Part shown: positions 3,708 through 17,759 of the stretch, piece by piece
How the letters are laid out: every line of letters starts with the position of its first letter
Numbering within the stretch: the stretch's first letter is position 1
IMG/VR virus record: IMGVR_UViG_3300045993_000505
Coordinates: 1 to 20,718 of that record
Length of the DNA stretch: 20,718 nucleotides
Direction: 5' to 3' (one strand)
Source of the DNA: a virus
The notes under the pieces: generated by a model
Told to the model about the DNA's origin: nothing
The model's input: the letters and a program-made list of their open reading frames with translations, nothing else
Database searches by the model: none
Program-made: the position numbers and the translations under genes

Positions 3708-6700
3708 ATGAAGCTTCTCCAAGGCGCTGGTGGGGGTTCAAGCACCCCAGTTAGTACAGAGGACAACCTACTATCCGACGACTACCTTGAGGTGGTGCTT
3801 GGTATTGCAGAGGGTCCAATCCGTGGTCTGGTTGGGAAGACAGAGGAGGTGATGGCGCAGTCCATCTATGTCGGAGAGACCCCCCTCGTCAACCAGAACG
3901 GTAGCCTGAACTTTACCAACACTGAACCTGACAACACCACCAGCAACTCCCCCGGTTTTGTGTGGGCGATGTACAAGGGAACTCCCTCAGATACAGCCAT
4001 CAAATACACCCTGGGTGGGTCCTCCTCCAACCAGAGCGTTGGTACCCCACTTGGGGCGGACCCTGTAACACGGCAGACGAACATGACGCAGCGGGGTTTC
4101 ACCCTGATTCAGGTTCGACTGCATATTGACCAACTTGCCAAGCAGACTTCTGAAGGGACCTTCGAGCATACTGCCCATTTCAAGATTGAGTACAAGCCTA
4201 CTTCTGCCAACTCCTGGATCAACTGGGATCAAAGCAACGGGGATGGGGACACAACAATCACCGGGAAAACCACCAGCGGGTATGTGAAAGAGTTTTCAAT
4301 CCATGTCCCCGCTCTCCTCACGGAGGACTACAACGTTCGGGTTACCAAACTGAGCCCCATCAATACGACGGAACTCTTTGTTAGTATGACCTGGGAGTCG
4401 ATGCAGCTTGTTGTGCCGGGGGACGGAAGTTATCCAAACACCGCTTTGCTGCACATGAAGGGCAAGGCCACCAATCAATTCTCCTCGGTGCCTGACTTCT
4501 CTGGTATCTACGAGGGTTGGGTGATGTCAGTTCCAATGAACTACAACCCCACCACCAGGGTGTACAACGAGAGCACCGCCTGGAACGGAACCTTCCAACA
4601 GTTGTACACCAACAACCCGGCCTGGGTCCTGTATAACCTGATCACGGATACCCGACTCGGACTGGCCCGCTACTACCCCGGCGTGGTCGCAAACAGGTAC
4701 GCCTTCTACCGTGCGGCCAAGTGGTGTGACACACTGGTCCCCGATGGTATCGGTGGGATGCAACCTCGGTTCACCTTCAATGAGTTGATCACCCAGCAGC
4801 GCAATGGCCTGGAGATGCTTCAGTACATCGCCGGGTCCTTTAACGCTTCATTGTTTGATGATGAGAATGGGGCCGTGCATCTTCGCACGGATGAGTTCTC
4901 TCTCCCCCTACAGATTTTCACTCCTGAAAATACTACCGCTGATGGCTTCCAATACTCCTACTCTGACATCACAACTCGGGTCAACAGCATCACGGTCTCC
5001 TTTGTCAACCCGGACTTGAACTGGGCCGAGGATCGTCGGATTTATGAGTACCAGGAGGGCATAGATGCCAACGGGCGGATTCCTTTTGACTTTGTGGCAT
5101 TGGGCTGCACGAATGTCCAGGAGGCTGTGCGTCGGGCCAAGTACCGGGCGGTGACCGCCAATACAGAAGTTACTTCTGTCAATTTCACAACCAATCGGTT
5201 GGGGATGCTCACCTCCATCTTCGATACGATCTATATCGCAGACCCGGATAGCGGCTGGACCGCACCTGGGCGGATCAAGTCTATTGTGGGGAACGTAGTA
5301 AACCTGAGGGATGCTATTTTCTTTACCTCCCCCGGGACTGCCATGATGGAGATTGTGACAGCCTCTGGCATCCATAGGGTTGATGTAAACCCTCCGGGTA
5401 CAGGCCTGCAGAGCTACGTCACAAGAACCGGTGGTTACTCCTTCCCTGGGGACATGCCTCCTAACTGTGTGTTCACGTTGTCGAAGGATGGGACCTTCGG
5501 ATACTTGAAGCCCTTTCGTGTCCTGAGCATTACAGAGGCAGACGATGGTGGGAGGGCCTACCAGATAAGTGCTGTTGAGGTCAACACTGTTAAATACTCG
5601 GGTGTGGAGGGCGGGACCTCAACGGTCTCTCCCCCTTACTCCTACATCACCCCTCAGTTTCCTGATGCCCCCTTCAACCTACGAGCCAAGACGCTGACTC
5701 GGGTAAGTGCCGGGGGGGCCATCCAAACCTACCTTGAGGTAACCTGGGAAATTCGGGAACGACCCTTCACCGTGCGGTTCGATGTGGCTTGGCAGGAGAA
5801 CCTGACAGGGCACTGGGACGTTCTTCCAGCCACAGGCAACAGCATCATCATCGGCCCGATCCTGGACGGTCGCTATTACAACATCGCAGTCACGGCGATT
5901 AGCCCCACGGGGACTCGCTCTCGCGCAGTGGTCCTGAACTGGCACTGGGGCGGGGTGGTCCTTGACAAGAGTCCGATAGCTACGTGTAAGGCCACGGGCC
6001 AGCTCTTCTCAGTTAAGGTGTCCTGGGTCTTTGTGGACCCCCCACCCGTGGGCGTGAAGGAGGTCGAGGTCTGGGGCTCAACAACGAATAATCGCTGGGA
6101 CGCTCTCAAGGTTGCGGCTATTGTTTTCCCTGGACTTGAGTTTGTACAGACCGGGCTGGTACCGGGAGTGATGGGGTACTACTGGATCAGGGCAAAGATG
6201 GCCGACGGTGGCTACTCCCCTTGGAAGCCCTTGTCTGAGAGTGAGGGGATGAGTGCTGCGGCTATCCTCGATGGTGCATCCATTGTCCCGCTGCTACCCC
6301 CCATCACCATTGATCAATTCGGTCCTGATCTGCTGAGCAGTTTCCTTGGCCTTGAGACCTTGGCTGCAACGATGGCTTTAGCTGAAATGCACGAGGCCTA
6401 CCGGCATTCCTCGGCCTCTGCAAGTCTCTCCGCTGAGGCCTTGGTTCTGGGGACTGGAATCTACCACCAGGACACGATCCTGAAGGAAGCAAATCTCGCT
6501 CTTGCTTCAACAGTTGATAGTTGGGTTGCGGTGCTGTTCGGCAACACCTCCATGATCCAGCAGAGTATGGTAGCCCAGGTCACCAAGAAGGCCTCCATGG
6601 CTGAGTGGTTGACGGAGCTAGATACTGCCTTCTACGACCCCGTGACAGGGGTAGGGTCGAAGGCGAGTATTGTCAATATGAACACTGCCATTGCAACGGC

Positions 6701-9251
6701 ACTGTCAGCTACTGCTTCAACAGAGTCCTCCTTGTTTGCAAGCTTTGGCAGCGGGGAGAAGGCACGAGTTTTCAGGGGGGATACTGCACCTTCCCAGATT
6801 CTCAAGTACACCTCTGTTCAGCTATCCAACGGTACTCGTGTTTACTCCGATTACATAAGCACTGGGGACCTGTGGTTTAAGACAGGGACAACCGCCCAGG
6901 ACGTTTACATCTGGACCGGAACATGGACACCGACGAAGGTAGGGGGGACCCAGGCCTGGAATGAAATCTATGACCTTGTGGTGGCCGACACTACCTCGTC
7001 TCTGGCCCTACGTTTCAGCAATTTGTCGGCACGGTTTGGGGACCTACCCACAGGTAAAACGGTCACAGCTTTCCTCACTGACAGCTACTACACCAAGGCC
7101 AATACTGACTCAGCGATTACGTCAAGGTTAACTCAGTACAACTCCAGTCTGTTCAACGCTGATGGGTCGATTGCTTCCCAGGCCCTGGTCTCTGAGTTCA
7201 CCAAGACTGTCGCTCGTTCGACCTCGGTCTCAGCCGTTACTGAGAGAGCTTTGTTTGCTTCGCTGGGGTCCACTGCAACTCACGTTTTCCGGCAGACTAT
7301 TCCTCCAACTGACTCCGATGTCACGATCATCCTGAGCGATGGCACGTATGCCACGCATAAGTTCCTGACGAATGGGGACATCTGGTATGACATCTCGGGG
7401 ATTGAGAAGATTTATGTGTGGAACGGGGCCTGGGTCCTTACCACCCACGATACCTCATCTGCTTGGGCACAGGACTACACCACGGTCTTTAATACCCCGG
7501 GGTCCACGGTGGCGGCACACTACAACGCCCTGGCTGCAAGATTCGTTGGAATTGAGGATAGTTCGACTGTCAAGACATGGGTGGAGGGTTACACCTACTC
7601 CATGGCGAATGCCGACTCGGCCATTTCAAGTGCGATAAATACCCTTTCAGCAACTGTCTCGGGAAAGTTGGATGCCAAGGTTTCCACCACCACCCTGGAC
7701 ACCGTTCGAGCCGACTGGACCTCCACACTGGCCCGGTCAGAGAAAACGACGTATGCTGTTTTTGGAGGGACCCCCTTCAACCGCGTCTTCCGTGGACCCA
7801 CTGCCCCTACGCAGCGTGACATTGTTTCGACGCTGACTGATGGAACTACCTATACCCTCAAGTACCTGAACCCGGGGGACTTGTTCTTTAACACCGGCAC
7901 CATCCCTGAGAGCACTTGGGTCTGGGGCACAACTTCATGGATTGCTACCGGCGTAAATTCCGCCTCCGCTTGGCAGCAGAACTGGAGCAACACCTTCGGG
8001 AGTTCAACGTCGGCCTTCTCCCAATCTTTCTCTGATATGGGGGCAAGGTTCACTGGGATAGGTTCGGGGCAGACCGTTGTTGGGTATCTACAGGCCAACT
8101 ACATTGCCCTGGCTGACAAGTCAGGAATACTTACCCAGGCAAGGACGGACACTGTTGCATATTTGACAGCCCCAGGGACAGGAGCGTTAGCCCTCGCCCA
8201 GGCGGCAATCACAAACATCCAGACCTCCCGAATCGGGTACGCAACGGATACTTCCGGGGCAGTCACAGACGATACAACTTTGGAGGCGGCTCAAGCTGCC
8301 GGACATGCTTGGCACGTAGGGCTCCCCTTGGCGACGGCTGTCCAGAATGTCAAGATTTCAGATGGGACAGGTTATGCCACCCTCCAGCAACGGTTCACCG
8401 CTCAGAAAGGTTTGAACGATACCCTGTCTCTGACCCATAGTGTGCTGCTGGATAACAACGGCTATGTGACAGGTACAACCTCTGTCAATGGTGGACCGGG
8501 AGCCTCTGGGTTCACTGTCATCACAGACACCTTCCGTGTCGCCCGCCCCGGCCTGACGCCCCTCAACATTTTCACTATCGGTGCTGGTGCGAATGGAGCG
8601 AACACTGTAGGGATAAACGGGAACTTACTTCTGACAGGTTCAGTGACAGCCGACAGTATCAATGGGCTTAACCTCAGAGTCTACGGTGGGGGCTTTGCAT
8701 CTGATGGGGGCTGGTCAGGAACTGGGGGCTACTACCTCAGCTCTGGGGCTTTGCGTATGGGCAAGTTCCCTGGAGGCTTCTTTGAGGTACTTGCGAACGG
8801 GGATATGACCGCCCCGGGCTTCATGACTCGCAGTGGTGTCCTGACTATTTCAGCGTTGAATGTCATCGGCTCCAGTAACATCGAAACAGGTGGAGTGGAT
8901 ACAGGAAACCTTGCAGCTAACTCCAGCACCTACGCAGTGGGGAACGGGGGGTATGGGTCCATCGTGGGGGGGAGCATCACCCTCAAGGCGGCTGGCCGGA
9001 TCATGGTCACAGTCATGGCAAATGCTCTTGCCTATAACGCCACGGAGTCTACTTTGACTATCTACGCAACTTGTGGGGGGGTGGCAGGCCCCTCGGTGGG
9101 GGTGAGTCTGAACTCAGGATACTCTGGGTCAGCCACAGCTATCGGGTTCTTCAATGTGGCTGCAGGCACGTATGCGGTAGGGGGTTCGGTCAGTGCTTCG
9201 AATAGAAATATCGGGGCCACAGCCATGCACGCGGTAGGAGTAATGCGATGA
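3708..9251 (+). CDS. J: Host-specificity / central tail-tip protein, lambda gpJ-like, enlarged
   Basis: gpJ homologue, the central tip protein that in lambda contacts the receptor with its C-terminus. It has 1847 residues against 1132. The N-terminus (DNLLSDDYLEVVLGIAEGPI) matches the lambda opening DNLVSRDTLSIVEAISEGP. Residues about 310-560 hold the TipJ-like tail domain (LITDTRLGLARYYPG, NGLEMLQYIAG). Two fibronectin-III-like domains span about 650-845. Residues about 1003-1478 are three diverged tandem modules of about 170 residues, each with a VFRG or VFRQ motif, GDLWF or GDIWY, a Trp-rich strand and an ARF segment. A DUF1983-like part (NNGYVTG, FRVARPGLTPLNIFTI) follows near 1575-1650, and the end is Gly/Ser/Thr-rich and probably beta-structured. 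GAGGGGGGG at 3691-3699 is the likely ribosome site. The receptor-binding role of the tail end is inference. Confidence 0.93.
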   Translation: MKLLQGAGGGSSTPVSTEDNLLSDDYLEVVLGIAEGPIRGLVGKTEEVMAQSIYVGETPLVNQNGSLNFTNTEPDNTTSNSPGFVWAMYKGTPSDTAIKYTLGGSSSNQSVGTPLGADPVTRQTNMTQRGFTLIQVRLHIDQLAKQTSEGTFEHTAHFKIEYKPTSANSWINWDQSNGDGDTTITGKTTSGYVKEFSIHVPALLTEDYNVRVTKLSPINTTELFVSMTWESMQLVVPGDGSYPNTALLHMKGKATNQFSSVPDFSGIYEGWVMSVPMNYNPTTRVYNESTAWNGTFQQLYTNNPAWVLYNLITDTRLGLARYYPGVVANRYAFYRAAKWCDTLVPDGIGGMQPRFTFNELITQQRNGLEMLQYIAGSFNASLFDDENGAVHLRTDEFSLPLQIFTPENTTADGFQYSYSDITTRVNSITVSFVNPDLNWAEDRRIYEYQEGIDANGRIPFDFVALGCTNVQEAVRRAKYRAVTANTEVTSVNFTTNRLGMLTSIFDTIYIADPDSGWTAPGRIKSIVGNVVNLRDAIFFTSPGTAMMEIVTASGIHRVDVNPPGTGLQSYVTRTGGYSFPGDMPPNCVFTLSKDGTFGYLKPFRVLSITEADDGGRAYQISAVEVNTVKYSGVEGGTSTVSPPYSYITPQFPDAPFNLRAKTLTRVSAGGAIQTYLEVTWEIRERPFTVRFDVAWQENLTGHWDVLPATGNSIIIGPILDGRYYNIAVTAISPTGTRSRAVVLNWHWGGVVLDKSPIATCKATGQLFSVKVSWVFVDPPPVGVKEVEVWGSTTNNRWDALKVAAIVFPGLEFVQTGLVPGVMGYYWIRAKMADGGYSPWKPLSESEGMSAAAILDGASIVPLLPPITIDQFGPDLLSSFLGLETLAATMALAEMHEAYRHSSASASLSAEALVLGTGIYHQDTILKEANLALASTVDSWVAVLFGNTSMIQQSMVAQVTKKASMAEWLTELDTAFYDPVTGVGSKASIVNMNTAIATALSATASTESSLFASFGSGEKARVFRGDTAPSQILKYTSVQLSNGTRVYSDYISTGDLWFKTGTTAQDVYIWTGTWTPTKVGGTQAWNEIYDLVVADTTSSLALRFSNLSARFGDLPTGKTVTAFLTDSYYTKANTDSAITSRLTQYNSSLFNADGSIASQALVSEFTKTVARSTSVSAVTERALFASLGSTATHVFRQTIPPTDSDVTIILSDGTYATHKFLTNGDIWYDISGIEKIYVWNGAWVLTTHDTSSAWAQDYTTVFNTPGSTVAAHYNALAARFVGIEDSSTVKTWVEGYTYSMANADSAISSAINTLSATVSGKLDAKVSTTTLDTVRADWTSTLARSEKTTYAVFGGTPFNRVFRGPTAPTQRDIVSTLTDGTTYTLKYLNPGDLFFNTGTIPESTWVWGTTSWIATGVNSASAWQQNWSNTFGSSTSAFSQSFSDMGARFTGIGSGQTVVGYLQANYIALADKSGILTQARTDTVAYLTAPGTGALALAQAAITNIQTSRIGYATDTSGAVTDDTTLEAAQAAGHAWHVGLPLATAVQNVKISDGTGYATLQQRFTAQKGLNDTLSLTHSVLLDNNGYVTGTTSVNGGPGASGFTVITDTFRVARPGLTPLNIFTIGAGANGANTVGINGNLLLTGSVTADSINGLNLRVYGGGFASDGGWSGTGGYYLSSGALRMGKFPGGFFEVLANGDMTAPGFMTRSGVLTISALNVIGSSNIETGGVDTGNLAANSSTYAVGNGGYGSIVGGSITLKAAGRIMVTVMANALAYNATESTLTIYATCGGVAGPSVGVSLNSGYSGSATAIGFFNVAAGTYAVGGSVSASNRNIGATAMHAVGVMR
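6714..8140 (+). repeat. Three diverged ~170-residue tandem modules inside J
   Basis: Matching protein motifs recur three times. LFASFG-type motifs occur at J residues 1009, 1182 and about 1348, so the spacing is about 173 and 166 residues. Each copy then has VFRG/VFRQ plus an xAPT or PPT turn, a TDG/SDG/SNG hairpin, a GDLWF/GDIWY/GDLFF strand, a Trp-containing hairpin, an aromatic helix with AW, and a GARF/AARF/SARF segment. Copies 1 and 2 also share an NTDSAI/NADSAI motif. The copies differ a lot at DNA level, so the duplication is old and kept at protein level. Confidence 0.78.
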
Positions 9252-9667
9252 GCGATGGTATCTATGACCACATAGTGTACGAAAAGGACACAGGCCGAAT
9301 CATTGGCTCGGGCACAAGCGGGCACCCCGAGAGTTTAGAAACCCCGACCTTGGGCGTCCTGGTTGGTGTCCAAGCCAACCCTGGTTTCTCTTATCTCTCC
9401 AACGGCAGAGTGGTCAACATTGGAGATGCTCCCTCTCCCCACCATACCTTTGACTGGCAAGACAAAACCTGGGTTGACTCCCGGACCTTTGAGACGGAGT
9501 GGGAGCTGGTTCGAAGCAAACGGAACAAACTTCTGACGGCCTGCGACTGGACCCAACTCCCCGATGCGCCCGCCTCCCCGCTGTGGCTGGCTTACCGCCA
9601 AGCCCTCAGAGATATAACTTCCCAGGTTTCGCCTTTTGAGGTTGTGTGGCCCAGCCCCCCCGGTTAG
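9248..9667 (+). CDS. Tail assembly chaperone-like protein (Phage_tail_APC type)
   Basis: Small protein of 139 residues that lies between J and the side fibre. Its second half has the pattern of phage tail assembly chaperones (PF16778 type): WELVRSKRNKLLTACDWTQL, PDAPASP, then YRQALRDITSQ and a terminal VVWPSPP. The N-terminal half (YDHIVYEKDTGRIIGSG, then a Trp-containing strand DWQDKTWVD) looks like the region that usually precedes it. The start overlaps the J stop as ATGA and has TAGGAG at 9235-9240, seven bases upstream. Because it follows J directly, it may help fold or attach the J C-terminus, or serve the next fibre; the sequence does not say which. It contains a seven-C run just before the stop. 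Family assignment is by pattern; the partner is unknown. Confidence 0.72.
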   Translation: MSDGIYDHIVYEKDTGRIIGSGTSGHPESLETPTLGVLVGVQANPGFSYLSNGRVVNIGDAPSPHHTFDWQDKTWVDSRTFETEWELVRSKRNKLLTACDWTQLPDAPASPLWLAYRQALRDITSQVSPFEVVWPSPPG

Positions 9668-9689: not shown

Positions 9690-12600
9690 ATGACTGATAC
9701 GGTCAATTATGTTACCCAGGACCTGGGTCAGGTTGCAGCCCTTACCGCTCGGGTGGGGGTTCTTGATGACAACGTAACTGCCCTGATTACGGCAGTCACA
9801 GCCACCAAGGTGGGGCTGCAGACTTCCGTCGCCAATGCAGCCACCAATGCCACCCTTGCGGGTACCAAGGCAACGGCGGCAGATGCTTCCGCCACCGCTG
9901 CGGGTGTCTCAGCAGGACTCTCCGGGACCTATGCCGAGAACTCGCGCTTGCACATGGTGGATTCGGAAGCAAGTTCTGTTGTGGCAACAACAAAGGCCGC
10001 TGCGGCTGCGGCCTCTGCCTCCTCCCTGGCAGTAGCTTTAGCATCTTTCCGACAGTTTTATCTGGGCACGTTTGCCTCTGACCCCCTACACGATGGGAAT
10101 GGAGACGCACTTCAGGAAGGGGCTGAATACTTCAACTCTGTCTCGGACAAGCTTCGGACCTACACGGGGGGGGTCTGGGTTGACTACGACTCAACCGCCC
10201 AGGCTGCAACTAACAATGCCAACCTGAGTGCCGCTGCTGCTGCTACCTCAGAAGCTGCGGCTGCTGCAGCCCTCGTTTCGGTTAATGGCATGGCGGTGAC
10301 TGTTGCGGGGTACACGGCTACCTCTGCAGGGGATGCAGCTACCGCTACCGAGCAGGCTGCTATTGCTGTGGAGAACGGCACCATTGCCACGACCCAGGCG
10401 GTGAGTGCAGCCCTTCAGGCCTCAAACGCAGCTACTTCTGCAACCGACTCTGCCTCCAGTGCCACAACGGCAACAACGAAAGCCTCAGAGGCTGCGACTT
10501 CTGCTACTACAGCTTCGACCAAAGCGGCAGAGGCTGCGACTTCTGCAACCTCAGCCTCGACCAAAGCGGCAGAGGCTGCGACTTCTGCAACCTCAGCCTC
10601 GGCCTCTGCTGCTACAGCAACCACCCAGGCAGAAGCCCTGGTGACGGCGGGTACCATAGCAACGACCCAGGCAGCAATAGCTATGACTCAAGCCGCCTTG
10701 GCGACAACCCAGGCGGAAGACGCTGCGGCCTCTGCTGCGTCTGCAGCCGCCAACGCGGGGGACGTAAACGCAGGGGTAACTGAGGCTACAGCTCAAGGTA
10801 CCGCCGCTGCGGCCAATGCTGCGTTGGCGCTTGAGGCTAAGGCCTCGGCCCTTGCAAGTGCTGCAACAGCCACAACCAAAGCAGCGGACTTAACCACTGC
10901 GGTATCCACAGCAACAACCAAAGCTTCCGAAGCATCTTCTTCTGCAACTACAGCCGGGACTGGCGCGACCACGGCCACAACCAAAGCGGCAGAAGCTGTA
11001 ACCTCTGCGACCAGTGCTGCGACCAGTGCCGCCACAGCGACGACTCAGGCCGCTTTGGCTGTGACGAGCGCCGGTACGGCCAGCACGGATGCCACAACGG
11101 CCTTCAGCAGCAAGACAACGGCAGTCTCCAGTGCCGCCGCTGCCGCTGCTTCCGCCTCTGCGGCTGCGGCTGATGCTTCAACGGCAAGTACGAAAGCAAC
11201 TTCGGCCACAGGCTCTGCCACGACGGCGACAACCCAGGCCGGAATCGCTACCACCAAAGCTGCGGAGGCGGCTGCAAGTGCAACGGCTGTTGCTACCAAT
11301 ACTGCCACGGTGGCTTCGAACCTTTCGACAGTCAATTCCCAAACCACCACGACCACTACAAAAGCTGCTGAGGCCTCAACCTCTGCAACCAATGCTGCAG
11401 CCAGTGCCACCACAGCCTCTACGGGCGCAACGACGGCGACAACTCAGGCGGGAATCGCTACAACTCAAGCAGGCCTTGCTGCAGCCTCAGCCGGAACTGC
11501 TGCAACCAGTGCCACAACGGCCACCACAGGGGCCTCTACTGTTGCCAGTGCTGTGACCGCTGCCTCGGGCAGTGCAACAGCAGCAGCGGGTAGTGCAACC
11601 TCAGCCAGCACAAGCGCCACATCGGCGGGAACAAGTGCCACCTCTGCCACCGCTGATGCTGCAACAGCCACCACCAAAGCAGCAACAGCAACGACTCAGG
11701 CCGGGATCGCAACCACCAAAGCCTCTGAAGCCAGTGCCAGTGCTGCAACAGCCTATGGAGCTTCCCTCCTGGCAGTATCCAAGGCTGATGAGGCCAGCAC
11801 CAGTGCCACCAGTGCTGCCACATCCCTTGCAGCTATCGGGAGTTCTGAAGCAAACGCTGCTACGTCGGCCACCAGTGCAGCAACATCGGCCACGTATGCT
11901 GACACCTCAGCAGCAACAGCCACGACCAAGGCTACTTTGGCGACTGAGAAAGCCACAGTAGCCTCCTCTAGTGCCACGACCGCCACCGACGCAGCGGCCA
12001 GTGCAGGCTCACAGGCAACCTATGCGGCTGTGTCTGCTGCCTCGGCCTTGACCTCGGCCTCTAGCGCCACCGCCTCACAGGCTGTTGCCACCACGCAGAA
12101 GGAGCTGGCACAGACCGCAGCAACTACAGCTACCGCCCAGGCCGTGCTTGCAGCCAACAGCGCCAGCGCAGCGGCTGGTTCAGCTACTGGTGCTGCCGCA
12201 AGCGATGCTTCGGCCCAGGACTGGGCAGAGAAGACCCCCAATATCCCAGTCGAGACCGGGATGTATTCTGCCAAGCATTGGGCGATGCAGGCCCAGGCCA
12301 GCAGCAGCGGCTCCGTGACCTACCGAGGGATGCTTGATGCCAGCATTGGCAGCTACCCCTCTCTGGCCCACCTTGGGGACTATTACGTCATTGGGACAGC
12401 CGGAACGATTGGCGGGACGTACTATACGGTAGGTGAGTCAATCATCTATAACGGAACGACCTGGGACAGCACAGGTGGGGCTACTATTCTGTCAGTCAAC
12501 GGGGAGGTAGGAACAGTTGTCTTGACCAAGACCCACATTGGTTTGAGTAATGTGGACAACACCAGTGACGCCAACAAGCCTGTAAGTACGGCCCAAGCCA

Positions 12601-15600
12601 CCGCCATTGCGTTGAAGGCCACCGCAAGTAGTCTTGCCACGGTTGCCACCACAGGGGCCTATGGTGACCTCTCTGGCACGCCTACAGCCTATTCCTTACC
12701 CTTGGCTGGGTCAACTACCCTCGGGGGCATCAAGAGCAGCTCCAGCGTCCTGGTGGATGGCTCGACGGGGGTGGCTACCGTCACCCCCACCTCCATCGGG
12801 GCACGGCCCAGCTCCTACGTCCCGGCTTGGTCAGAAGTTACTTCCAAACCGACAACCCTGGCAGGGTACAACATCAGTGATGCCTACCCTTTGACAGGAA
12901 ACCCGGCAGGCTACTCAACCACCGTGGGTACCGTAACGGGTGTCACAGCTACCGGGCCAGTGCTTTCCAGCGGGGGGACAGCTCCCGTCATCAGCCTACC
13001 TGCTGCAACAAGCAGCGTCAGCGGGTACCTGTCCAGCACGGACTGGGCTACCTTCAATGCTAAGGCTCCCGTCAACAACCCAACCTTTACAGGCACAGTT
13101 GGTGGTGTCACGGCAGCAATGGTCGGAGCCCCTTCCGGCAGCGGCTCCAGCAGCGGGACAAACACTGGGGACAATGCTACCAATACCCAGTATTCAGGCT
13201 TGGTCACGAATGCCACCCATACGGGAGACGTAACAGGTTCAGGTGCTTTGACGATTGCCACCAGTGCTGTGACCCTCGCCAAGATGGCGGATATGGCTAC
13301 GGGCTCACTGATCTATAGAAAGACAGCGGCCACGGGCGTACCTGAAGTCAATACCCTTGCGACCCTGAAGACGGACCTTGGGTTGACGGGGACAAACAGT
13401 GGGGACAACTCAGCCAACACCCTGTACTCCTCTTTGGTTACGAATGCGACCCATACTGGAGATGTAACGGGTGCCACAGCATTGACGATTGCCACCAGTG
13501 CTGTGACTCTCGCCAAGATGGCAGACATGGCTACGGCTTCGCTGATTTACAGAAAGACAGCGGCCACTGGAGCGCCTGAGGTTAATACCCTTGCGACCCT
13601 GAAGACGGACCTTGGGTTGACAGGCACGAACAGTGGGGACAACTCTGCCAATACGCTCTACAGTGGGTTGGTCACGAACGCGACCCACACGGGAGACGTA
13701 ACAGGTTCAGGTGCTTTGACGATTGCTAACAGTGCCGTGACCCTCGCCAAGATGGCAGACATGGCTACGGGTTCTCTGATTTATAGAAAGACAGCGGCCA
13801 CTGGAGCGCCTGAAGTCAATACCCTTGCGACCCTGAAGACGGACCTTGGTCTGACAGGTACAAATTCAGGGGACAACTCTGCCAATACGCTCTACAGTGG
13901 GTTGGTCACGAATGCCACCCATACGGGAGATGTGACGGGTTCTGGAGCTTTGACAATTGCTAATAAGGTAACGATGACCGCCACGGCTCCCGTGTTGGTA
14001 TCTGGAAGCCCAACAGTGATTGCTGGCGGCGCAGTTGCGATCAGTATGGCAGCAGCGACCACAAGTGTTCCAGGGTACCTGACAGCCGCCGATTGGACAA
14101 CCTTTAACGGTAAGCAAGCTGCGCTAGGTTTCACCCCAATGAATAGCACGGTTCCGGTAGTACAGTACACCGGAACCGCAGGGGATATGAACGCCTTTGG
14201 TGTCCACACCATCAATGAGGTAACCTACGCAAATGATAGCACTAGCAACCTCCCCGTAAGCCCCAGTGGTTCCGCCCAGTGGTGGAACACCCTGACGATG
14301 GGGCCAACAACAAGAACCACACAAATTGCAGCGCAGGCGTATGGGACGGGTTCTGGCAACGCACCACAAAGCGACGTATGGATTAGGTCTAAGCATGACG
14401 CCGGTTGGAGTACGTGGCTGAAGTTCATAACGTCAGGAAACATCGCCAGTCAGAGCGTCAACTACGCTACCACAGCGGGATCGGCCCCCGCAAACGGAGG
14501 GACTTCCGCTGCTTGCTCTGGCAATGCTGCATCTGCTACTTACGCTTCTGGGGTAACCCCAAATAGTTTCGCGGGGGCGGGTACGTTCAATCTATCTTGG
14601 TCAAGCAATGGTGGAGGTGACAAGGCCTCTTATTACACACCAGCTCTAACTTGGACGCCGACCACCTCAATGATTGGCGGGGCTAATATATCCGGCAACG
14701 CCGCTACTGCTACCACGGCGGCTGCTTGCTCAGGTGAAGCAGCAAGAGCCAAAGGGTTACAACGTAGCGATAGCCCCTCAGATGCCTATAACGTTCAGTC
14801 CTGGTGGGACGGTGCTTATTGGGAATTAAAAGGCTATGCAAGTACAACCTACCACGCGGGCTGCAAGGTAGCTTATGCAACAACCTCTGGCGCTTGCTCT
14901 GGTAACGCTGCCACAGCCACCACAGCTACCGCTCTGACAGGTCACTCCGCTGGATATGCCTACGCAGATGGTGGAAACTCAGCAACGGTTGGTGGTTATG
15001 GCCGGTGTACCGCACTTGCCGACTATACAACCTGGGACTCTGGCAAATGTGGTCCAGTGGGGTGGTACAACTTCGCTGGTGGCCCTACTACGTCGAACTT
15101 TCACATGGGGTGGAGAACAACGTTCAACGAAGCAATGACCTATGGTGCAGAAATTGCTGTCGTTAGCGGTGGTGGACGCGCATTCTTCAGGACATTCAAT
15201 GCCAATGTTGGTCAGGCGTGGAATGAGTTTTACCATAACGGAAACTTGACTCTATCGCAGACAGCGGGTACATCTTATCGCGCAGTGCAGGCAGACGTAA
15301 ACGGATACATCCACAACACCTACTTCAATTCGACAGACAACGCCATCGCATCTGGTGTGACTGCGATTATGGCAAAGCAGGGCAATGACTTCATGCGTTC
15401 TGCCTCGGCAGCAGCGGTAGCCACGTTCATTAGCGGGCAAGCAATGAACATCTCTGGAGCGTCTACATCGTGTTCAGGTAACGCTGCCTCTGCTTCACAA
15501 CTGGTAGGCGCAGCACCAAACGGGGTGTATCGCTACACGCCAAACGTCCACTTCAATTCGGGTGCAGGAGGTGGCATTTATATAAACTGGGATAACGGTG

Positions 15601-15983
15601 GAACAGGCACACACTTCCATGTTGGAAATGGCTTTAACAGTGAAGCTTTTTCCGTCTCCAGCACCGGTGTTACTTGGGCAGCCAGCACCATCAGCTCGGC
15701 CTCCGACGAACGCCTGAAAAAGAACTGGCGCGACCTTGGCATCGACTACATCTCCAAGCTGGCGAAGGTGAAGTATGGCGTCTATGACCGCACGGACATT
15801 GAACAGACCCAGGTCGGCGTCTCTGCCCAATCGCTCCAAGAAGTCATGCCGGAAGCGGTTACGGCCAGTGAAGACGGAATGCTCGCAGTGGCCTACGGCA
15901 ACGCAGCTCTCGCAGCCTGCGTTGCACTTGCAAAAGAAGTGACAGAACTCCGTGCGGAAATCAACAAACTGAAGGGGATTTGA
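9690..15983 (+). CDS. Side tail fibre with Ala-rich stalk and C-terminal S74 chaperone
   Basis: Very long fibre protein (2097 residues), analogous to lambda Stf. Order of parts: a short N-terminal coiled coil (LTARVGVLDDNVTALITAV); a recurring fibre module at about 118-170 (FYLGTFASDPLHDGNGDALQ); an Ala/Ser/Thr-rich stalk from about 175 to 840; the Stf-type motif DWAEKTPN...YSAKHWAMQAQ near 844; the SVNGEVGTVVLTKTHIGLSN segment; an array of 78-residue repeats; a pyocin-knob-like domain (about 1480-1585, SDVWIRSKHDAGWSTWLKF); and beta-rich fibre ending in WNEFYHNGNL. The C-terminus is an S74 intramolecular chaperone with SDERLK at 2005-2010 and a final coiled coil. AAAAAGGA at 9674-9681 is a good ribosome site. 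The S74 part should trimerise, then cut itself off at Ser2005/Asp2006. Assignment as trimeric fibre is strong; the receptor is unknown. Confidence 0.93.
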   Translation: MTDTVNYVTQDLGQVAALTARVGVLDDNVTALITAVTATKVGLQTSVANAATNATLAGTKATAADASATAAGVSAGLSGTYAENSRLHMVDSEASSVVATTKAAAAAASASSLAVALASFRQFYLGTFASDPLHDGNGDALQEGAEYFNSVSDKLRTYTGGVWVDYDSTAQAATNNANLSAAAAATSEAAAAAALVSVNGMAVTVAGYTATSAGDAATATEQAAIAVENGTIATTQAVSAALQASNAATSATDSASSATTATTKASEAATSATTASTKAAEAATSATSASTKAAEAATSATSASASAATATTQAEALVTAGTIATTQAAIAMTQAALATTQAEDAAASAASAAANAGDVNAGVTEATAQGTAAAANAALALEAKASALASAATATTKAADLTTAVSTATTKASEASSSATTAGTGATTATTKAAEAVTSATSAATSAATATTQAALAVTSAGTASTDATTAFSSKTTAVSSAAAAAASASAAAADASTASTKATSATGSATTATTQAGIATTKAAEAAASATAVATNTATVASNLSTVNSQTTTTTTKAAEASTSATNAAASATTASTGATTATTQAGIATTQAGLAAASAGTAATSATTATTGASTVASAVTAASGSATAAAGSATSASTSATSAGTSATSATADAATATTKAATATTQAGIATTKASEASASAATAYGASLLAVSKADEASTSATSAATSLAAIGSSEANAATSATSAATSATYADTSAATATTKATLATEKATVASSSATTATDAAASAGSQATYAAVSAASALTSASSATASQAVATTQKELAQTAATTATAQAVLAANSASAAAGSATGAAASDASAQDWAEKTPNIPVETGMYSAKHWAMQAQASSSGSVTYRGMLDASIGSYPSLAHLGDYYVIGTAGTIGGTYYTVGESIIYNGTTWDSTGGATILSVNGEVGTVVLTKTHIGLSNVDNTSDANKPVSTAQATAIALKATASSLATVATTGAYGDLSGTPTAYSLPLAGSTTLGGIKSSSSVLVDGSTGVATVTPTSIGARPSSYVPAWSEVTSKPTTLAGYNISDAYPLTGNPAGYSTTVGTVTGVTATGPVLSSGGTAPVISLPAATSSVSGYLSSTDWATFNAKAPVNNPTFTGTVGGVTAAMVGAPSGSGSSSGTNTGDNATNTQYSGLVTNATHTGDVTGSGALTIATSAVTLAKMADMATGSLIYRKTAATGVPEVNTLATLKTDLGLTGTNSGDNSANTLYSSLVTNATHTGDVTGATALTIATSAVTLAKMADMATASLIYRKTAATGAPEVNTLATLKTDLGLTGTNSGDNSANTLYSGLVTNATHTGDVTGSGALTIANSAVTLAKMADMATGSLIYRKTAATGAPEVNTLATLKTDLGLTGTNSGDNSANTLYSGLVTNATHTGDVTGSGALTIANKVTMTATAPVLVSGSPTVIAGGAVAISMAAATTSVPGYLTAADWTTFNGKQAALGFTPMNSTVPVVQYTGTAGDMNAFGVHTINEVTYANDSTSNLPVSPSGSAQWWNTLTMGPTTRTTQIAAQAYGTGSGNAPQSDVWIRSKHDAGWSTWLKFITSGNIASQSVNYATTAGSAPANGGTSAACSGNAASATYASGVTPNSFAGAGTFNLSWSSNGGGDKASYYTPALTWTPTTSMIGGANISGNAATATTAAACSGEAARAKGLQRSDSPSDAYNVQSWWDGAYWELKGYASTTYHAGCKVAYATTSGACSGNAATATTATALTGHSAGYAYADGGNSATVGGYGRCTALADYTTWDSGKCGPVGWYNFAGGPTTSNFHMGWRTTFNEAMTYGAEIAVVSGGGRAFFRTFNANVGQAWNEFYHNGNLTLSQTAGTSYRAVQADVNGYIHNTYFNSTDNAIASGVTAIMAKQGNDFMRSASAAAVATFISGQAMNISGASTSCSGNAASASQLVGAAPNGVYRYTPNVHFNSGAGGGIYINWDNGGTGTHFHVGNGFNSEAFSVSSTGVTWAASTISSASDERLKKNWRDLGIDYISKLAKVKYGVYDRTDIEQTQVGVSAQSLQEVMPEAVTASEDGMLAVAYGNAALAACVALAKEVTELRAEINKLKGI
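10200..12215 (+). repeat. Ala/Ser/Thr/Lys-rich stalk repeat region, 42-bp units in part
   Basis: The fibre coding sequence here is made of near-repeats of units such as STKAAEAATSATSA. The cleanest part is around 10470-10600, where a 42-bp unit recurs almost perfectly (second copy starting near 10557, 42 bases after 10515). 42 bp is 14 residues, or two heptads. The remainder is a degenerate relative, with TTQAGIATTKA and TTKASEA variants. Lys and Glu recur at regular intervals between small residues, as expected of an Ala-rich coiled coil. The composition also produces long open frames on the other strand that are not genes. Confidence 0.85.
13155..13970 (+). repeat. 234-bp tandem repeats in the fibre gene
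   Basis: The motif coding GTNxGDN recurs at 13155, 13389, 13623 and 13857, exactly 234 bp apart, giving three full units and about half of a fourth. Each 78-residue unit holds GTNSGDNSANTLYSGLV, TNATHTGDVTG, an AVTLAKMADMATGSLIYRK strand-helix and PEVNTLATLKTDLGL. Copies are very similar at DNA level, especially the third and fourth, so recombination between them could change shaft length in whole 78-residue steps. Confidence 0.93.
15702..15719 (+). other. Predicted S74 self-cleavage site and catalytic motif of the fibre
   Basis: These codons encode SDERLK, fibre residues 2005-2010. In characterised S74 chaperones (for example the K1F endosialidase tail spike) the chain is cut between Ser and Asp after trimerisation, using a Ser/Lys pair. 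Both residues are present here. A cut would release the last 92 residues, including the terminal coiled coil, and leave a fibre ending in STISSAS. The motif is seen; cleavage is inferred from the family. Confidence 0.8.
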
Positions 15984-15984
15984 A

Positions 15985-16782
15985 ATGACGACGATTTATA
16001 CCTTGCCGTTCGTGATGGGTGGCGGTGCCCTGAAGTACCAGGAATTCACCGGATCAGGCACCTTCACACCTAGCGCAGCACTGCTTGCTAATGGTGGACA
16101 GGTAATGGTGCTGTTGGTGGCGGGTGGTGGAGGGAGTGGTGGTACGTCCATGGGCTATGCCTCGGGTGGCGGTGGTGGTGGTGGTGTTTTACTGCAACCC
16201 TGTACGGTAAACGCCGCTACTACTGTAACTATCGGTGCTGGAGGGGTTGCTGCTGTAATGAGTGTTAGTAGTCCTACTACCGGTGGAGATTCACTCTTTT
16301 ATGCATCCTCTGGTACGCTGACAGCTAAGGGCGGTGGCTATGGGAGCAGTGGTAGTGGGGGCGCTGGAGGCTGTGGTGGTGGAGGTGGGAGCAACGGTTC
16401 AACAGGCTCTATTGCTGGCGGCGGTGGGGGTGGTGCTGGAGGCTATGGGCATCCTCCTACAGTGAGTCAGACAACGGCTATATCTTGGAGCGGTAGTGGT
16501 AGTGGTAGTCAAGGTGGCAGTGGTGCTCCTGGGTATAACGCCACTACCACTGGGCAGATATGTAGTGGCATGGGTGGCCCAGGACTATACGGATATGGTG
16601 GTGGTGGTGGTGGTGGTGGTGGCATTGGCGCAGGGGGTGGTTCAGGTGGTGGTGGCATTGGTGGTTCTCCGGGGTCTGATGGAGCCGCTAATACTGGCGG
16701 TGGTGCTGGTGGCTGCTATACCACAACAATTGCAGGGCGCAATGGCGGCTCAGGTTTCTGTCGTGTCTATTGGTCGGAGTAA
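15985..16782 (+). CDS. Glycine-rich phage adhesin-like protein, candidate fibre tip
   Basis: 265 residues, extremely Gly-rich. The N-terminal part (KYQEFTGSGTFTPSAALL, VMVLLVAGGGGSGG) is the glycine-rich domain seen at the ends of many phage fibres. It is followed by blocks of poly-Gly separated by short variable loops rich in Ser, Thr, Tyr, Pro and some Cys, and the protein ends GGSGFCRVYWSE. This layout resembles the adhesin gp38 of T2-like phages and phage S16, where a polyglycine-II sandwich holds hypervariable receptor-binding loops. It starts one base after the fibre stop with AAGGGGA at 15972-15978. Gly codons are mostly GGT and GGC, while GGG is common in J and the tape measure. The adhesin role is inference from composition and position; it could instead be a structural fibre protein. 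Confidence 0.62.
   Translation: MTTIYTLPFVMGGGALKYQEFTGSGTFTPSAALLANGGQVMVLLVAGGGGSGGTSMGYASGGGGGGGVLLQPCTVNAATTVTIGAGGVAAVMSVSSPTTGGDSLFYASSGTLTAKGGGYGSSGSGGAGGCGGGGGSNGSTGSIAGGGGGGAGGYGHPPTVSQTTAISWSGSGSGSQGGSGAPGYNATTTGQICSGMGGPGLYGYGGGGGGGGGIGAGGGSGGGGIGGSPGSDGAANTGGGAGGCYTTTIAGRNGGSGFCRVYWSE
16597..16623 (+). repeat. GGT trinucleotide tract in the glycine-rich gene
   Basis: Eight GGT codons in a row followed by GGC encode nine glycines. A shorter relative, GGT-GGC followed by five GGT, lies at 16165-16185 and codes six glycines within a seven-Gly run. Copy number could change by replication slippage without breaking the frame. Confidence 0.85.
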
Positions 16783-16785
16783 TTT

Positions 16786-17262
16786 ATGTATGCACTAATC
16801 AAAAATGAAGTGGTCGAGAATGTCATCATTGCTGACGCAGCTTTCGCAGAGCAAATCGCCGTCCACTACGACGATGTGATCAGCCTTGACTCACGCCCTG
16901 AAGTGGGCATCGGTTGGGGTTATGTGTCTGGTGCCTTCGTCGCCCCAATAGTCGTACTGCCTGTCCTTCCTGACCCTGAGCCTGATCCCGCCGAATGGTT
17001 GATCGACGTAGGCCCATTCTTTGACCGCTTCGGCAATCTCAAGATGGCAATCCTCACATCGACCGACGCCGGGGTGAGGGCTATTCTTGCTGACCTCCAG
17101 GTGCGCCATTGGATTGATTTGAAGCGTGCAGATGTGGCAACGGGACTGGCCTACGTTGGAAGTGTCGTTCCTTCGTTAACCTCTACAATCAGGACTACAA
17201 TTCTGACTACACCTGTTGCTGCACATGAGAACTTAGTTCTACGCAAACTGTACTTCAAATGA
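16786..17262 (+). CDS. Small fibre-associated protein, possible fibre assembly or attachment factor
   Basis: 158 residues. The N-terminus (MYALIKNEVVENVIIADAAF, VGIGWGYVSGAFVAP) has the pattern of short phage proteins found beside tail fibre genes, including fibre assembly proteins. The second half (PFFDRFGNLKMAILTSTDAG, RHWIDLKRADVATGL) resembles another small family that I associate with tail-fibre clusters. The end is basic (LVLRKLYFK). A GGAG at 16776-16779 overlaps the end of the upstream gene, and the start is three bases after its stop, so the two are probably translated together. The stop overlaps the next start (ATGA). No catalytic motif or membrane segment is visible. Role in assembly or attachment of the adhesin is inferred from position and pattern. 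Confidence 0.6.
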   Translation: MYALIKNEVVENVIIADAAFAEQIAVHYDDVISLDSRPEVGIGWGYVSGAFVAPIVVLPVLPDPEPDPAEWLIDVGPFFDRFGNLKMAILTSTDAGVRAILADLQVRHWIDLKRADVATGLAYVGSVVPSLTSTIRTTILTTPVAAHENLVLRKLYFK

Positions 17263-17759
17263 ACTACGCAACCATCCGGCCCACCCTCAAGTCAGGAGAC
17301 TTAATCGCTCAAAGCCACAGGGCTCCTTTCTGGAAATCCTGGTATGACTTCAAGATAGCAATGGTGCGCTGTTTTACCCAGAGTGAGTTCAGCCATGTGG
17401 CTATCTGTTGGGTGATTGCTGAGCGTGTCTTTATCCTGGAAGCTGTCTCCAAGGGGGTACGCATTTTTCCACTGAGCCGTGCTGGGGATTTCTACCATCT
17501 CCCCTTGCCAGTAAAGTGGACGGAGTTTTCCGAAGCCTATGCACTGTCCCATGTGGGGGACCGATACTCCCAGATCGAGGCCATCCTGGCCTACTTCGGG
17601 CCGGTAGATGAGATGAAGGATGTCTGGGAATGTGCTCAGTATGCCCTGTGCATACTAGAGCAAGCGGGGGTCCAACTGGGTAACGTTGCTACCCCCACCG
17701 CTGTGGTCCGAGCTGCACAACTCTCAGGCGCTCCCTGTATCCTGGTGACTAACCCATGA
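17259..17759 (+). CDS. Permuted papain-fold (YiiX/YebB-like) enzyme
   Basis: 166 residues with the layout of circularly permuted NlpC/P60-type enzymes, in which the histidine comes before the cysteine. Visible in order are SGDLIAQS, the SEFSHVAI motif giving the candidate catalytic His, FILEAVSKGVRIFPLS, a second basic strand block, and WECAQYALCILEQAG with the candidate Cys in a helix. Members of this superfamily include amidases and hydrolases; several phages carry them next to tail or lysis genes. No signal peptide is seen. The start forms an ATGA overlap with the gene before, and the stop overlaps the next (ATGA). It could act on peptidoglycan or on lipid or peptide amides; the substrate cannot be read from the sequence. 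Confidence 0.68.
   Translation: MNYATIRPTLKSGDLIAQSHRAPFWKSWYDFKIAMVRCFTQSEFSHVAICWVIAERVFILEAVSKGVRIFPLSRAGDFYHLPLPVKWTEFSEAYALSHVGDRYSQIEAILAYFGPVDEMKDVWECAQYALCILEQAGVQLGNVATPTAVVRAAQLSGAPCILVTNP

Follow-up and report, generated by a model that had tools for sequence, protein, structure and literature searches.

An S74-Terminated Side Fibre and a Pam3-Type Glycine-Rich Protein Encoded Side by Side in a Lambda-Type Siphophage

The window analyzed here, a stretch of 20,718 nucleotides of viral DNA (positions 1 to 20,718 of IMG/VR record IMGVR_UViG_3300045993_000505), encodes a glycine-rich protein directly behind a side tail fibre that carries its own C-terminal chaperone. This raises the question of what the glycine-rich protein is, and on which part of the tail it would be mounted. 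A lambda-type tail region runs across the window, with the end of the tape-measure gene, the tail tip proteins, J, a Phage_tail_APC protein, the fibre, the glycine-rich protein, and a 158-aa protein in this order (Table 1). J and the six genes preceding it are 28-49% identical to their counterparts in Xylophilus phage Lumi and 31-45% identical to those in Achromobacter phage JWF. The genes after J have no detectable counterpart in the searched regions of Lumi and JWF, and the fibre cassette is therefore the variable part of the locus. Scanning with a portion of J retrieved no contigs. Further downstream, a 166-aa protein (17259-17759) shows a weak similarity to Peptidase_C92 that stays below the threshold (17.7 bits against a cut-off of 27; E 0.0038).

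Table 1. Tail features in the window (coordinates are window positions)
Feature	Position	Strand	Evidence	Remark
Lambda-type tail tip protein J	3708..9251	+	phrog_31 'central tail fiber J' E 5.5e-152; PF24801	context; alternative mounting site
Tail fibre assembly chaperone-like protein (Phage_tail_APC)	9248..9667	+	PF16778 62 bits	between J and fibre
Side tail fibre, 2097 aa	9690..15983	+	ORF; PF13884; several PHROG tail fibre families	S74 domain C-terminal
Peptidase_S74 intramolecular chaperone, residues 2005-2097	15702..15980	+	PF13884 35 bits	predicted self-cleavage Ala2004/Ser2005
Glycine-rich tip protein (probable), 265 aa, Gly_rich_2	15985..16782	+	PF21722; AlphaFold2; structural matches	Pam3 gp24-like predicted fold
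158-aa protein, candidate accessory protein or tip folding helper	16786..17262	+	phrog_14370 E 5.7e-6, residues 1-56	role from position

The fibre and its junction with the next gene

The N-terminal part of the fibre is long and rich in Ala, Thr, and Ser. It consists of repeats rich in these residues together with at least three near-identical repeats of about 75 residues each (THTGDVTGSGALTIA...TNSGDNSANTLYSGLV; window 9690-13900).

At the other end of the fibre, the PF13884 (Peptidase_S74) profile matches residues 2005-2058 of the 2097 above its cut-off of 22 bits, with a score of 35 bits and an E of 1.7e-8, and the match begins exactly at Ser2005, the codon of which is TCC (15702-15704). 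Both Ser2005 and Lys2010 are in place in an intact SDERLK motif (residues 2005-2010), in agreement with the first-pass annotation, which had described a fibre ending in an S74 chaperone with this motif unbroken. The spacing of the two residues is that of the known S74 Ser/Lys pair. The portion of the fibre beyond the predicted cleavage point amounts to 93 aa, and the best relatives of the S74 domain, about 50-60% identical, are found in environmental phages. An S74 domain that is present but does not cut, and hence leaves no exposed fibre end, is hardly to be expected here, since Ser2005 and Lys2010 are intact within a canonical SDERLKKNW that is common to dozens of relatives. We infer that cleavage occurs.

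The fibre gene ends in TGA, followed by one base and then by the ATG at 15985, just as had been noted earlier, and an AAGGGG ahead of this ATG is a possible ribosome-binding site. A fusion of fibre and tip by frameshift or read-through was considered and set aside, because a normal start and a possible ribosome-binding site are present; the ordinary overlapping starts seen in relatives also disfavour it. The S74 motif, the family membership discussed below, and the order of the genes can all be read directly from the DNA and its translations.

Family and predicted fold of the glycine-rich protein

The 265-aa product of 15985-16782 contains 95 Gly (36%), in part as long Gly runs, and none of 2000 shuffles gave an open run as long as this ORF. 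PF21722 (Gly_rich_2), the only Pfam family matched, covers residues 25-263 with 36.8 bits against a cut-off of 24.3, and the alignment takes in profile positions 4-225 of 226. Such a near-full-length match indicates a complete conserved protein rather than an accident of G-rich DNA. Gly_rich_2 is likewise the sole family matched by all 15 of the proteins aligned, that is, the window protein and 14 relatives from environmental contigs and prophages, and a sequence profile of the family finds Pam3 gp24 in the PDB (E 3.5e-7). The glycine-rich protein gave no matches in phages by tblastn, nor in viral contigs when these were scanned for its peptides; low-complexity masking is a likely cause of both results, which do not imply absence. 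Two scans with correctly spaced degenerate DNA patterns were empty.

The AlphaFold2 model (pTM 0.70) has a confident strand-rich core, while the pLDDT is below 50 across much of residues 127-226, the glycine-rich part in which polyglycine II helices or a packed strand lattice would lie. VIA-align superimposes the model on Pam3 gp24 with a Z of 14.0 (170 residues, rmsd 2.9 Å) and on a tail-tip chain of siphophage Bxb1 (9d93 chain Q) with a Z of 13.9, the next matches, to the glycine-rich domains of ALK and LTK, being far lower (Z ≤6.6). In a viral structure library 204 matches were obtained at E 0.001, the top ones mostly named glycine-rich domain proteins, and a protein of Halorubrum phage HF2 is the second-best viral structural match. 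The model therefore supports a TNF-like β-sandwich core with glycine-rich insertions, as in proteins of the Pam3 gp24 type. The long N-terminal baseplate-docking helices of that type are absent from it: the core begins near residue 16 with no helix before it, and the N-terminus holds no recognisable docking domain.

The protein had been compared at first to the gp38-type adhesins of T2 and S16, a resemblance that does not hold up. It gives no match to PF05268 or PF21721 at E up to 1, where S16 gp38, used as the positive control, scores 246 and 70 bits, respectively; its residues 1-45 contain no Trp, as against W7, W20, and W36 in S16 gp38, and its best structural matches are Pam3 gp24 and the Bxb1 chain. 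The gp38 fold (6F45) is not among the structural matches listed, an absence that is no evidence either way. It is thus very improbable that the protein is a true gp38 family adhesin docked via Gp38_N, even if it shares with gp38 the position after an S74 fibre and a similar glycine content, and even if one environmental protein in that position (L017) has a real GP38 match (E 4e-10).

The glycine-rich protein is most likely a receptor-binding tip of the Pam3 kind. Pam3 gp24 is the tail fibre of its phage and has proposed receptor-binding loops (PMC9608196), and its relative TFP_Y, of a Klebsiella phage, recognises LPS and acquired mutations in its glycine-rich domain that are host-adaptive (PMC12671077). 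In the haloarchaeal hafunaviruses, host range goes with mutations in the adjacent genes of a glycine-rich adhesin and a small protein (PMC8651126). By analogy, these three cases lend support to a receptor-binding role in the present phage.

A different role, that of a non-virion helper of fibre folding like T4 gp38 or Tfa, is suggested by the position of the gene, as the genes of fibre chaperones frequently lie directly behind that of the fibre (PMC7289586), and by a weak match (E 4e-4) to phrog_863, annotated 'tail fiber assembly'. However, the fibre has its own S74 chaperone, a chaperone-like Phage_tail_APC gene already lies upstream, and the predicted fold matches receptor-binding tips, which makes this role improbable.

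For the 158-aa protein encoded next, searches of phages, viral contigs, and 369 genomes yielded no relative. A profile made from the small genes located behind other glycine-rich proteins does not pick it up (E 9.9), and its single-sequence structure model, with a pLDDT of 34, is too poor to be informative. In the environmental loci L110-L189, the gene behind a glycine-rich tip very often encodes a small protein that starts with M(A/S)HFA; these small proteins are likely a dedicated helper family.

Recurrence in environmental contigs

Among 77 environmental loci that were found via the S74 domain alone and are long enough to judge the next gene, a glycine-rich protein comes next in 7 (L009, L016, L017, L018, L027, L065, and L070). 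It is thus a minority partner, and many other small genes take this place in the remaining loci. L017 passes the GP38 cut-off and L027 matches GP38 below it; the Gly_rich_2 matches of L009 and L070 are also below cut-off. A second sample, biased because it was drawn through a glycine-rich protein, contains four loci with Gly_rich_2 above cut-off directly after S74 fibres (L118, L138, L168, and L183). Altogether, 16 of 71 distinct glycine-rich ORFs lie within 150 nt of an S74 fibre, a count that takes in S16 gp38 and the window's own ORF as well as a few glycine-rich ORFs that are unrelated. No lambda J match was found among the S74-plus-glycine-rich records tested, which are mostly short fragments.

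L183, with a Gly_rich_2 head, and L017, with a GP38 head, have in common an N-terminal tag of 63 residues at 67% identity, so that the two kinds of head seem to hold the same position. As judged from the sequences, a common tag with differing heads suggests exchangeable tips on a shared docking tag. The tag is carried by ORFs behind S74 fibres at L183:4610-5605, L017:5393-6280, and L027:701-1597, with either a Gly_rich_2 or a GP38 head. An N-terminal tag, 88% identical over 26 residues, is likewise shared by L070:305-955 and an ORF of L052 starting MAVDLGPDGL, both right after S74 fibres; one of the two heads is glycine-rich and the other is not.

Immediately ahead of the cleavage point, the relatives have conserved residues (GNVTAY or TTYNTT) irrespective of the gene that follows, and a search by eye for co-evolution of the fibre end and the tip gene in these relatives gave no sign of it. 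There is thus no indication that the fibre end and the next gene evolve together, an outcome that speaks neither for nor against a general socket. In a separate group of loci (L055, L071-L077, and L089), S74 with an SDIRTK motif occurs on short proteins that do not look like tail fibres. An unrelated protein of the MDSQ/MNNM type comes next, and S74 may here be used outside tail fibres.

Mounting of the tip and comparison with known systems

The explanation that we favour, and regard as somewhat probable, is that the S74-trimmed side fibre and the glycine-rich receptor-binding tip together make up a bipartite module for host recognition in a siphophage whose J is of the lambda type. In this mechanism, the long side fibre would trimerise with the C-terminal S74 domain aiding the folding, and the S74 domain would then detach by cutting the chain between Ala2004 and Ser2005. 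The glycine-rich protein would be the tip, with a β-sandwich core bearing glycine-rich loops, the variable ends of which would contact the receptor, as proposed for Pam3 gp24. As the N-terminal extension of the tip is only about 17 residues long, the protein probably caps another tail part, and this would most likely be the fibre end freed by cleavage. Such mounting is suggested by analogy to S16, by the gene order, and by the short N-terminal tail. A more specific proposal, which we hold tentatively and at less than even confidence, is that this lambda-type siphophage follows the S16 assembly rule with a Pam3-type tip replacing gp38 and docked by a short N-terminal peptide.

The main rival to mounting on the fibre end is mounting on J or the baseplate. 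Here the glycine-rich tip would sit elsewhere, at J or the tail tip, independently of the fibre like Pam3 gp24 or the Bxb1 proteins, and its adjacency to S74 would reflect the clustering of host-range genes. The closest solved relatives are indeed not known on S74 fibres, and in Bxb1 the central fibre protein is reported to be the one with which the polyglycine-rich domains associate (PMC13252515); moreover, most of the sampled glycine-rich ORFs are not directly behind an S74 fibre, and the fibre end and the next gene appear uncoupled. On the other hand, Pam3 gp24 docks on the baseplate by means of its long N-terminal helices, whereas the short tail of the window protein suits a cap, and the one-base spacing fits expression coupled to the fibre. 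We consider this arrangement unlikely, yet deserving of serious weight.

The first-pass annotation had suggested that the locus would be a host-range cassette of a mixed kind, with an S74 domain doing the shortening of a T2-like scheme in a lambda-like siphophage. The deposited genome of Salmonella phage S16 shows that gp37 itself matches PF13884 (44.9 bits, SDRRIK, Ser638), with 112 aa from the cleavage point onward and gp38 27 nt downstream, and the chaperone part of gp37 is reported to be autocleaved at DLNVS^SDRRIKK, which exposes the docking surface of gp38 (PMC7917993). The logic of the window is therefore the same as that of T2 and S16 and not mixed; in that established scheme, too, S74 shortens the fibre before a glycine-rich adhesin is added. 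Polyglycine or 'brush' domains and glycine-rich tips of siphophages are also already on record (PMC13243795, PMC13252515, PMC13243192). What survives of the earlier reading is the S74 fibre, the separate and probably receptor-binding glycine-rich tip just downstream, and the lambda-type J, while the mixed kind, the gp38 identity, and a novelty for siphophages find no support.

The locus thus adds one more phage, a lambda-type siphophage, that encodes a self-trimming fibre beside a glycine-rich receptor-binding tip, and it suggests that the latter should be modelled on the Pam3 family. The environmental Gly_rich_2 and GP38 heads on the same kind of tag behind S74 fibres suggest an exchangeable tip position. 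If the S16 rule does operate here with a Pam3-type tip, the cleaved end of an S74 fibre would be a general socket for different adhesin families.

Among the known systems, the hafunaviruses share with the window a small gene after the glycine-rich adhesin gene, the pair being linked to host range; they differ in being archaeal myoviruses, and no S74 processing is described in the passages on these adhesins. The Bxb1 glycine-rich tail-tip proteins (9d93 chain Q; gp33 brush domains, PMC13243192) belong to a siphophage tail tip and to the same fold class, but Bxb1 has a mycobacterial host, a different baseplate setting, and no reported S74 fibre. Gp24 of cyanophage Pam3 has the glycine-rich tip fold and is followed by a small gene, that of the gp25 chaperone, a position taken in the window by the gene of the 158-aa candidate helper; unlike the window protein, gp24 makes up an entire fibre, long N-terminal helices included, instead of a separate tip behind an S74 fibre. 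A parallel in layout is gp37-gp38 of S16 and T2, where the fibre is also shortened by its own C-terminal S74 chaperone and the gene of a glycine-rich adhesin lies immediately downstream. However, the core of gp38 is a β-helix, and its dock is the helical Gp38_N domain with the Trp prongs, whereas the window protein is of the Gly_rich_2/Pam3 type. Both the parts of the module and their order are accordingly known, a Pam3-type tip standing in for gp38, and the module is a variation on a known tail design rather than a new kind of machine.
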